NCBI GenBank assembly: GCA_009663005.1
Contig: VIGQ01000938.1
Location: 117,501 to 142,500, forward strand
Source: Actinidia chinensis
Taxonomy: Eukaryota > Streptophyta > Magnoliopsida > Ericales > Actinidiaceae
Direction: 5' to 3'
Length of the DNA: 25,000 nt
Shown: piece after piece, positions 17,783 through 21,443 of the stretch
Numbering within the stretch: position 1 is the stretch's first letter
Layout: each line of letters opens with the position of its first letter
Translations under genes and position numbers: made by a program
Notes under the pieces: generated by a model
Database searches by the model: none
What the model was told of the DNA's origin: nothing
What the model saw: the letters and a program-made list of their open reading frames with translations, nothing else

Positions 17783-17787
17783 GTATG

Positions 17788-18327
17788 TTATGTGGGGCAA
17801 AAAATTATCCAGTGAAGACCATCTCCATACAGAACTGTATATCTCCAAAAGTACTTCCATCTCCATTATGAAGTCTATCCACCGTGAGACTCCAACTCCA
17901 TCATCACTCCTATAATTATGGATTGCTCTCCAAGTACAAAAAAAAAAATCAGCCTCCTAGCAATTATCTCCGATAGTATGGGGCTACTCCTCCCATCTTA
18001 TCCTTCCCAAGGATAAGCCGTGATCCACGGACATGGCCCATTACTCTCATCTATAATAAAGCTGCCCGCTCCCCATCATTTATAAGGTCATGATACATAA
18101 GTTAACTCTGGCATATGATTGATAGTATTGTTTGTTCATTGCCTTTCGCTTTTGATCGCCTTTTTCTGATCGTTACGCACGGAGACTTTTTGATGGCCTC
18201 ACCCTCCGCCGGTAACGTTTGTTCATGTGCTAGCGCAGGTCGTCCCAGATATAGCCGATGTCTATCGCCTAGCGAGAGCAATGTGACTGTTGGTTGCTCT
18301 GTCCCAGCATTTTTTAACACCACAACA
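17788..18327 (+). repeat. 5' LTR
   Basis: It aligns end to end with 20916-21438. Shared words include attatcc.agtgaa, ccaccgtgagactccaactccatca, attatggattgctctccaagta, cgccggtaacgttt/cgccgtaacgttt, gcgcaggt, tctatcgcctag, tgactgttggttg and accacaaca. The start reads TT where the 3' LTR has the canonical TG; the end is CA. A TATA-like 'ctataataaa' at 18051-18060 is a plausible promoter for the element. Confidence 0.9.
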
Positions 18328-18328
18328 G

Positions 18329-18350
18329 TTGGCGGCCGTCGTATGGGAAC
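18329..18350 (+). other. Primer-binding site
   Basis: Directly after the 5' LTR terminal CA and one G comes ttggcggccgtcgtatggga. This is the plant gypsy-type TTGGCGCCGTCTGTGGGA with one extra G, one shifted base and one substitution. The first bases would fit the 3' end of a tRNA ending GGCGCCA (for example tRNA-Asp). The primer tRNA is not certain. Confidence 0.8.
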
Positions 18351-18529
18351 GACCATTCGACCTTCTACTACCATGCACAACCGTTTGGTTACCCTAGACC
18401 AAGTGTCCATAGGTGACTCATCAGTCTAGTGCCAGATGTAATTCGTCTTCAGTGCCGAGGGTGCATCGTCAACTAGTGTCATGAAGATATATATCCCGCC
18501 AACCTCCTTGTTTTATTTAGCCAACATCA

Positions 18530-18624
18530 AAGAACGCCCATTCATTGCCAATGATAAGGCGTCTTAAATCGCCATCGAGGATTTCGCCCTCAAGAACGCC
18601 CATTATTATAACATGATAAGGCAA
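18530..18624 (+). repeat. Two-copy direct repeat, period 63
   Basis: The words aagaacgcccatt…atgataaggc occur at 18530-18559 and 18592-18622. They lie between the primer-binding site and the minisatellite, in sequence that otherwise shows 'atcgcca' words reminiscent of the later units. This may be an early stage of tandem expansion. Confidence 0.65.
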
Positions 18625-18672
18625 TACACGACGATCGTCCAATCGCCAAATTTTTTAATGATCTCGCCTCGC

Positions 18673-20585
18673 GTGTGTTCACCCTCACCCAATAGGTTCA
18701 AAGGTTTCACCTCTAGCCCAAGGGCCTCACAAGGTGTTCACCTCGCCCATCGGACTCAAAAGTGGTTTCACAGCAGGTAGTCACCTCGCCCATAGGCTCA
18801 AAGGTGTCACAATCGCCAAAGGTGTCACCTACGCCATAGGCTCGAAGTTTTCACCTCGCCCAAATGGGCTCAAGTGTGTTTCACAAGGTTTTCACCTCAC
18901 CCATAGGGCTCACAGGTGTCACCTCGCCAAAGTGTTCACCTCGCCCAAAGGGTTTAAACGTTTTCACACCCTCACCAAACCGTCATGCCCATAGTGGCTC
19001 ACAGGTCAACCCTTGCAAAGGTTCACCCTCGCCATATGGGCTCACGGGTTTCACCTCGCCCAAGGTGATCACCTAGCCCAAAGGGGTTCAAAGGTTTTCA
19101 ATCTCGCCCATAGGGCATCACACAGGTTTTTCACCCTCGCCACAGTGTTCACACTCGCCCATAGGCTGAAGGTGGTCAACCTCGCCCAAGGGCTTCGAAT
19201 GTGTTACACTCGCCTAGGGCTACAAAGGTGGTTCACGAGGTTTTTCACCGGTCGCCACATAGGGCGCAGAGGTGTTCACGGCTCGCCATGAGGTGCGCAT
19301 CTCGCCCAAAGGTTCACAGCACACAGTGTTTTCACATCACCCATAGGCTCACGAGTGTGTTCACCTGGCAAGGTGTTCACCTCGCCCCTGGCTCGAAGGT
19401 GTTCCCTCGCCAAGAGGGTTTCAAAGGTCTTTCACTTCGCCCATAGGGCTCACAGTGTTCACTCTCGCGCCAAAGGTATTCACCGCCCATAGGGCTCAAA
19501 CGGTGTTCGACGCTCGCCGCAAAGGGTTCAAAGGTTTTCACCTCACCCATAGGCTGGCTCACAGGGTTCAACCTCGCCCAGTGCCTCACCTCAGCCCAAG
19601 GGTTAAAGGTTTTCACAACCGTCGTACCACATAGGCCTCACGGTGCTGTTACACCTCGCCCAAGGGTGTTCACCTCGCCAAATGGTTCAAAGGTTTTTCA
19701 CCTCGCCCATAGGGTTCCTAGGTGTTCACCCTCGCCAAAGGTGTTCACCTCGCCCATAGGGCCAAAGGTGTTCACCTCGCCCAAGGATTCAAAAGTTTTC
19801 ACCTCGCCCATATGGGCTCACAGGTGTTCACCTCGGCCCAAAGGCTCAAAGGTGTTCACCACTCAGCCCCTAGTGCTAAAAGTTTCATAGTCGCCCAAGT
19901 GTTCACCTCGCCCATAGGGCTCACGGTGTTTAACCTCGCCCAAGGTGTTCACCTCGTCCCCAAATGGTTCAAAGGTTTTCACCCTCGCCCATAGGGCTCA
20001 CAGGTGTTCACCTCTCCCAGAGGTGTTCAACCCGCCCATAGGGCTCAAAGGTGTTCACCTCGTCCCAAAAGGGTTCAAGGTTTTGTCACCATCGGCACCA
20101 TCAGGGCTCACAGTGGTTCACCTCGCCCAAGGGCTCACCCTCAGCCCCTAGGTGCTCACCTCTGCCCAAAGGGTTCTCAAATGTGTTCTGTCACCCAAGG
20201 TGTTCACACCTCGCCATAGGGCTCACATTCACAGGTGTTCATCACCCGATAATAGGTGCTTCACCATCGCCCAAAGGGTTCAAAGGTTCACCTCACCCAT
20301 AGTGCTCAAAGGTGTTCACCCTCGCCCATGAGGTGTTTAAAGGTTTTCTACCTCACCCATAGGGCTCACAGGTATTCACCTCGCCCAAGGTTGCTCACTC
20401 GCCCTGAGTGCTAAAAGGTGTGGCACTCTCGCGCCAGGTTTGTCCACGCGTCTCCATAGGGCTCACAGGTGTTCACCTCTCCCAAGGTGCTCACCCTCTC
20501 CCATAGGCTCACACGAGTGTTCACCTCGCCCAAGGGCTCACACTTGTTCACCTCACCACATTGTGCTCATAGGTGCTCATCACAT
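18673..20585 (+). repeat. Minisatellite, 27-base unit, about 70 copies
   Basis: The unit alternates between two forms: gtgttcacctcgcccatagg-gctcaca and gtgttcacctcgcccaaagg-gttcaaa, giving a dimeric higher-order pattern near 54 bases, with shorter 'ggtgttcacctcgcccaa' units of about 20 interspersed. Units vary by one-base indels and substitutions. 27 is nine codons; one frame reads VFTSPIGLT or VFTSPKGFK, but all frames are partly open on both strands and frames break often, so coding is not shown. It fills about three quarters of the retrotransposon interior. Confidence 0.95.
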
Positions 20586-20899
20586 TGAGGATCATGTGAA
20601 TCATGGGGGCGGAGAATAAGAATCCTCAAGGCCGAGAAGAATTTATTCTCCGAATTATGCATTTCTTCTCCAAAGTCAAGATCCAAGATATATCACCAAT
20701 CCCTCTGTGCCACAGGTGATCAATGTCGCCAGTGGTTGGAGGAGATCATGTCGCCAATTGCAGAGGTGACCTTTATCACCACAGCTATGGATGATCGCCA
20801 TTTTGCCAAAATGATTGGTCGTCAATTTATCTCATTGTGCCAACGATTTTGTTACCGAATGATAACCAAGTATTTTACCTGTTGGCATCTTGGCATCTC
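20586..20899 (+). other. Right interior of the retrotransposon
   Basis: Unique sequence between the minisatellite and the polypurine tract. It still contains words such as 'tcgcca', 'gaggtgacc' and 'caggtgatc' that look like degenerate units. The one open frame (20736-20918) has no recognisable domain. Confidence 0.5.
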
Positions 20900-20915
20900 G
20901 AGTAGTGGGGGCTAC
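20900..20915 (+). other. Polypurine tract
   Basis: gagtagtgggggctac lies immediately before the TG start of the 3' LTR. A G-rich purine run here is the expected plus-strand primer of LTR retrotransposons, though this one is short and ends with pyrimidines. Confidence 0.65.
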
Positions 20916-21438
20916 TGATGTGGGTCAAATTATCCTAGTGAAAGACATCATCCTAAAGCTTTTCTCCAAAGACTCCATCTCCATTAGAAGTCACACCCAC
21001 CCACCGTGAGACTCCAACTCCATCACAACTCCTAAATTATGGATTGCTCTCCAAGTATCCAAGCCTCCTACATTTCTCCGATATTATTGGGATACCTCTC
21101 CTCCCATACTATCCTTCCAGGAATAACGTCGGAATCCAGGACATGACCCATTCACTCCACCTATATACGGCCTGCTTCACCCCATCGTGTTATAGGTACA
21201 ATGAATCCATAAATTACTCTGGCTAAGACTGATAGTACATGTTTGATTCATTGCTTAGGCTTTGAATCGCCTTGGTTTCTGATTCGTACGCCGGAGAGGT
21301 TTTTGAGCGCTCACCCCCGCCGTAACGTTTGTTTCATGGCTGCGCAGGTCCCGCCCAGATATTACACCGAGGTCTATCGCCTAGAGCCGAGTCATTTGAC
21401 TGTTGGTTGGCTCTCCAACCAGATTTTTAACCACAACA
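20916..21438 (+). repeat. 3' LTR
   Basis: It begins TGATGTGGG and ends CCACAACA, followed by the target duplication GTATG. A TATA-like 'ctatata' lies at 21161-21167, and a gttatag-type word near 21190 matches the 5' LTR region that may hold the polyadenylation site. The open frame 21243-21527 runs out of the LTR into flank and is not a gene. Confidence 0.9.
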
Positions 21439-21443
21439 GTATG

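Follow-up and report, generated by a model that had tools for sequence, protein, structure and literature searches.

The window analysed here, a stretch of 25,000 nucleotides from Actinidia chinensis, carries an LTR retrotransposon that probably derives by internal deletion from a Retand-type (Tat) Ty3/gypsy element; it is non-autonomous and one of a low-copy family that presumably spread in trans. The first-pass annotation of this DNA had placed a single inserted unit at 17783-21443, with a GTATG target site duplication (TSD), a pair of LTRs, a primer binding site (PBS) and a purine tract, and all of these were found there, the PBS as a candidate (Table 1). That it is one insertion is borne out by the TSD, the LTR pair and an empty site on another contig, C309.

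Table 1. Features of the element and of the neighbouring host gene in the window.
Feature	Position	Strand	Evidence or remark
Class-3 lipase exon (PF01764, At4g10955-like)	13176-14121		Host gene; nearest protein from Actinidia
Target site duplication GTATG, left	17783-17787	.	Sequence inspection
5' LTR, 540 bp	17788-18327	+	LTR-LTR alignment; 82% to C7 LTR, full length
Putative primer binding site, noisy in the window	18330-18352	+	TTTGGCGCCGTCTGTGGGAACGA in the C7, C329 and C218 copies
Leader, 347 bp, GT and PBS first	18328-18674	+	Between 5' LTR and array
Tandem array, interleaved 28-bp and 18-bp units, 1,905 bp	18675-20579	+	69 anchor matches
Tail, 336 bp, closing with a purine-rich tract (about 20900-20915)	20580-20915	+	End kept between copies
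3' LTR, 523 bp	20916-21438	+	LTR-LTR alignment
Target site duplication GTATG, right	21439-21443	.	Sequence inspection

The element measures 3.65 kb in total with an interior of 2.6 kb, and the array takes up 1,905 of the 2,588 interior bases (74%), in agreement with the three quarters claimed before. The 5' LTR is followed, after 2 bp, by the TGG of the putative PBS, in a PBS-like stretch conserved between copies; compared with plant tRNA ends, it gave an Asp-like match at 18 nt, which was equalled by 9 of 776 TGG sites. The first 80-95 nt or so of the leader are common to the relatives that bear the LTR and PBS, and are followed by a module at about 18515-18623 that corresponds to 64/65-bp tandem repeats in another copy, L051. 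The GAGTAG-G-rich purine tract before the 3' LTR is conserved in the window, L051, L053 and the copies on contigs C8 and C218.

The element had been described as non-autonomous and devoid of gag-pol, and no such domain was found in its short interior. In 17 stop-free pieces taken from the element, with some overlap between them, 0 Pfam families reached the cut-off, though frameshifts could hide short remnants; the antisense Transposase_28 gene was likewise absent before its 3' LTR by Pfam. The whole Pfam sample comprised 48 pieces, that is, the 17 from the window, one database protein (P0121, see below), 27 from other loci, which were chosen by length with partial coverage of their ORFs, and 3 from the L051 interior. 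The ORFs within the array, which gave nothing at the Pfam cut-off, were rejected as genes because it is the repeat that keeps their frames open. A hammerhead ribozyme, the feature of retrozymes, was sought with Rfam across 17700-21500, at E values of up to 5, and none was detected, though noise could hide one; the tRNA and Rfam scans gave nothing at threshold.

The window is noisy, long-read-like DNA that looks unpolished. For example, when the lipase exon is aligned with a protein of Actinidia rufa and frameshifts are allowed, 262 of the 291 codons aligned are identical, and 31 frameshifts occur in 946 nt. The full-length alignment of the two window LTRs has 448 identities, 30 mismatches (11 transitions and 19 transversions; K2P 0.066) and 66 gap openings. 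Since this is the same signature as in the lipase exon, with many gaps and more transversions than transitions, the LTR differences are mostly noise, and dating the copy by LTR divergence was rejected because they resemble sequencing error. Unlike the window pair, the L051 pair shows real divergence (39 transitions, 7 transversions and 3 gaps; K2P 0.087). Sequence from upstream of the lipase was also noted twice, at 11543-11799 and 24773-25000 (71% alike), which may reflect a tandem gene duplication.

On C309 (34300-36243, minus strand), the left flank matches the window up to 17780 and the right flank from 21498, with 55 bp between them that do not match the element. The empty stretch could represent another allele or a duplicated copy; since it matches both flanks without the element, misassembly is unlikely. 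In addition, four-point sums of LTR substitutions, computed by hand, pair the two window LTRs with each other in every set checked: 10.0 versus 14.1 and 15.9 with C7/C8, 9.6 versus 15.0 and 16.0 with C7/C218c, and, narrowly, 12.0 versus 12.9 and 12.9 with C7/C329. Just left of the insertion, at 15943-17202, lie three copies of an imperfect direct repeat offset by about 510 bp, which are also present on C309.

The array scores 848 in wraparound local alignment, compared with at most 12 outside the element (1-8000, 8000-17700 and 21500-25000, both strands). Tandem Repeats Finder reports a blurred mix of periods, and the anchor spacings are bimodal but blurred, with 8 of 68 in neither length class. 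Majority sequences could be drawn up for a 28-bp class of 39 units and an 18-bp class of 21 units. The spacings in L051 (n = 31) are 28 in 23 cases, 18 in six, and 56 and 51 in one each; those in the C7 array (n = 25) are 28 in 14, 18 in six, 27 in four and 43 in one. Consequently, the 27-base unit reported earlier is to be read as 28 bp with an interleaved 18 bp, as 29 of the 31 L051 spacings are exactly one or the other. The best of 230 circular orders for the window array is 102 bp long, three long units and one short, and scores 1105 versus 1080 for the plain 28-mer, a slight gain, while five shuffled sequences score 178-204. The C7 array shows a 74-bp repeat in nine copies. Among copies with both ends in view, array length ranges from about 0.56 to 1.9 kb, with 920 bp in L051.

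In folding predictions the array RNA shows strong self-complementarity. None of 300 tiled shuffles folds as well as the tiled 102-bp string (z -5.0), and the 28-mer folds better than 295 of 300. All seven pieces taken from the L051 and C7 arrays, of which two overlap, give z between -2.6 and -9.2, next to -0.7 and -0.9 for two flank pieces. The array might therefore be kept for its RNA, as a self-complementary rod acting in packaging, dimerisation or silencing, but we regard this as unlikely. There is no pattern of compensatory change, the most variable pair examined having A-T in 1 and A-C in 8 of 58 cells; the second inverted repeat is weakened in the L051 units, and the tiled L051 unit is equalled by 11 of 300 shuffles. 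The window pieces are also uneven (z -0.2 to -7.4): z runs from -1.05 to -7.4 over the eight 250-nt pieces that touch the array, and four others give -5.6, -4.1, -0.2 and -0.4. A bolder version, in which the array is what makes the element work, its rod-forming repeat RNA aiding packaging, dimerisation or recombination during reverse transcription and its growth being selected at the element level, seems to us very unlikely. The predicted structure is likely a by-product.

The element is not a single copy. In a search of its own genome (638 Mb in 1,499 contigs), the window LTR gave 25 matches, the tail 13 and the L051 array 45 on 11 contigs, with 14 of 14 candidates scored. The L051 LTR gave at least 47 with 40 of 312 candidates scored, so that related LTRs are more numerous than those examined. 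After near-identical contigs had been merged (C218/C176/C3; C309/C329; C15/C786, the last pair 94.9% alike over 2,482 bp), the 11 contigs correspond to seven array loci. At six of them, namely C298 (the window copy), C13 (L051), C7, C8, C218 and C329, an LTR of the family adjoins the array in the same orientation. The order of leader and then array recurs at C7, C8, C218, C329 and L051, and the tail and LTR follow the array at C8, C218 and L051. L051 is complete, with two LTRs, a PBS, a leader with the 64/65-bp repeats, its array and a tail in an interior of 1,591 bp; no matching TSD was detected there, nor a 5' LTR at C8. TSDs were seen at two sites, GTATG in the window and TTTAA at either side of the C218 block (L036:3439-7625; the same in L050). 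This block has three LTRs and two arrays, the second directly after the middle LTR without a leader, which is best read as 1.4 kb of array, tail and LTR duplicated in tandem. It should be noted that many of the family-locus stretches compared are partly N, including those next to C7, C3 and C25. At L051:3477-3644, the final 84 bp of the 5' LTR are doubled in tandem (86%).

The first-pass annotation had proposed a search for autonomous relatives with the same LTR and PBS. Relatives with coding parts that share the LTR, leader start or tail are present: one with gag and two with antisense Transposase_28. On C138 an ORF with Retrotrans_gag (1.4e-06) comes after the LTR and leader start, which are also found on C5 and C16. 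On C269 and C23, an antisense Transposase_28 ORF (2.2e-10 and 2.4e-06, both passing the cut-off) precedes the tail and LTR, and L044 has a subthreshold one (0.0096). On C23 the 64-bp module precedes Transposase_28, and on C27 it sits 3.2 kb ahead of the tail. The gag and Transposase_28 domains come from separate contigs, never from within one complete element, and no reverse transcriptase was found in the element or identified in the relatives. The suggested Tat-type origin is thus supported by relatives with antisense Transposase_28 or gag, and to that extent it stands; the assignment to the lineage rests on the LTR, leader, tail and Transposase_28 neighbours.

The leader start and the 64-bp module are 780 bp apart in L033 (C13:9.33M) and abut at leader positions 95-98 in L051, and the match to the window leader crosses this joint at C7, C8, C218 and C329, which argues for one deletion followed by spread. 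We suggest that an internal deletion took out gag-pol and the antisense Transposase_28 gene and joined the first 80-95 nt or so after the LTR to the repeat-bearing region before the 3' LTR, a polarity that we infer, while the LTRs, PBS, tail and purine tract were retained. The LTR-driven RNA would then presumably be packaged and copied by proteins of the coding relatives, and template switching or unequal exchange may have lengthened and reordered the 28/18-bp array. As this genome does contain coding relatives with the LTR, the window copy might instead be a single decayed coding element that lost gag-pol by local deletion, with no spreading family. We consider this improbable, since the same leader joint and array occur at several loci and an identical deletion is unlikely to have arisen more than once. 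At L033:6692-7386 a tandem repeat of 249 bp (2.8 copies, 87%) was also noted, its end overlapping the leader match on the PBS side.

That an LTR element captured an unrelated genomic satellite, or acquired it through misassembly, seems to us very unlikely: the assembly is noisy and the C15/C786 array has only diverged LTR pieces in view, in the opposite orientation, but six of the seven array loci have the family LTR adjoining in the same orientation, no long stand-alone array occurs among the 45 matches, and an empty site and TSDs were found. The first-pass annotation had named a large satellite with misassembled LTR pieces as what would overturn its reading; instead, leader, array, tail and LTR recur in order elsewhere. 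Its proposal that the element is a satellite source is unsupported, as the array query, in a search that skips simple repeats and very common words, matched only short arrays. The non-autonomous family is a case of an array on a mobile element without a detectable satellite.

Other repeats were noted in the window. At 5925-6880, inverted repeat arms (5925-6146 and 6663-6880, 76%) flank a 61-bp tandem repeat in what resembles a foldback element, and 320 bp at 7402-7721 match their own reverse complement (69%) as a MITE-like palindrome. Three direct-repeat segments, in the same order and 70-74% alike, occur at 118-1444 and 8671-10316, as a diverged duplicated or dispersed repeat. A tRNA-like stretch at 615-675 (GGTTCGATTCCC) is perhaps SINE-derived; it has no tRNA call and only sub-threshold Rfam matches.

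Beyond this genome, the translated array was searched against 5.8 billion proteins, and with the 7,991 candidates that had the most words in common scored, one match was obtained at E <= 0.001, namely P0121 (E 2.8e-17), whose source is a 542-bp ENA contig. The resemblance of its tail to the window alone was not significant (E 38), and it had no relatives in viral contigs. Pattern scans of viral contigs gave 16 single matches, taken as chance, and none in the follow-up scan; those of genome contigs gave 0 and then five bacterial stretches, and led nowhere.

Among non-autonomous LTR elements, LARDs have very long LTRs and TRIMs are under about 1 kb, and both retain cis signals only and are mobilised in trans. 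The window element likewise retains cis signals only; its size lies between the two, its interior is mostly minisatellite, and its LTRs of 523-540 bp and total of 3.65 kb place it outside the size limits of either. In the open-licence literature, no description was found of this element family, nor of a gag-less one with an array as most of its interior. From copy to copy the array varies in length and in the order of its repeats (74 bp in C7, a best fit of 102 bp in the window), a small natural series that could be used to ask whether such changes arise during reverse transcription or on the chromosome.

For 97% of Retand clusters, Transposase_28 is reported in antisense ahead of the 3' LTR, a gene that relatives in this genome also carry, and Retand elements have LTRs of 315-1,194 bp, a range that includes the window LTRs, with tandem arrays before the 3' LTR (PMC11963269). 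However, their interiors of 7.4-12.9 kb contrast with the 1.6-2.6 kb of the two complete copies here, which are without gag, pol and Transposase_28. In the soybean Gmr9/GmOgre elements, arrays kilobases long lie between the coding region and the 3' LTR, and short units of differing length are interleaved (e.g., ABC) as in the window (PMC3305785). GmOgre is, on the other hand, a large family with intact coding copies and an unrelated unit length pattern, and is likened here by description rather than by sequence. Similarly, in Lathyrus sativus, arrays occur in Tat elements, some of them non-autonomous and without pol, like the present one, although those Ogre elements retain gag and have units that make up long satellites as well, whereas no long array was found here (PMC7004042). 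The interleaved minisatellites of soybean and the arrays in pol-less, gag-bearing Ogre elements of Lathyrus are thus close precedents for the element in A. chinensis (PMC3305785; PMC7004042).
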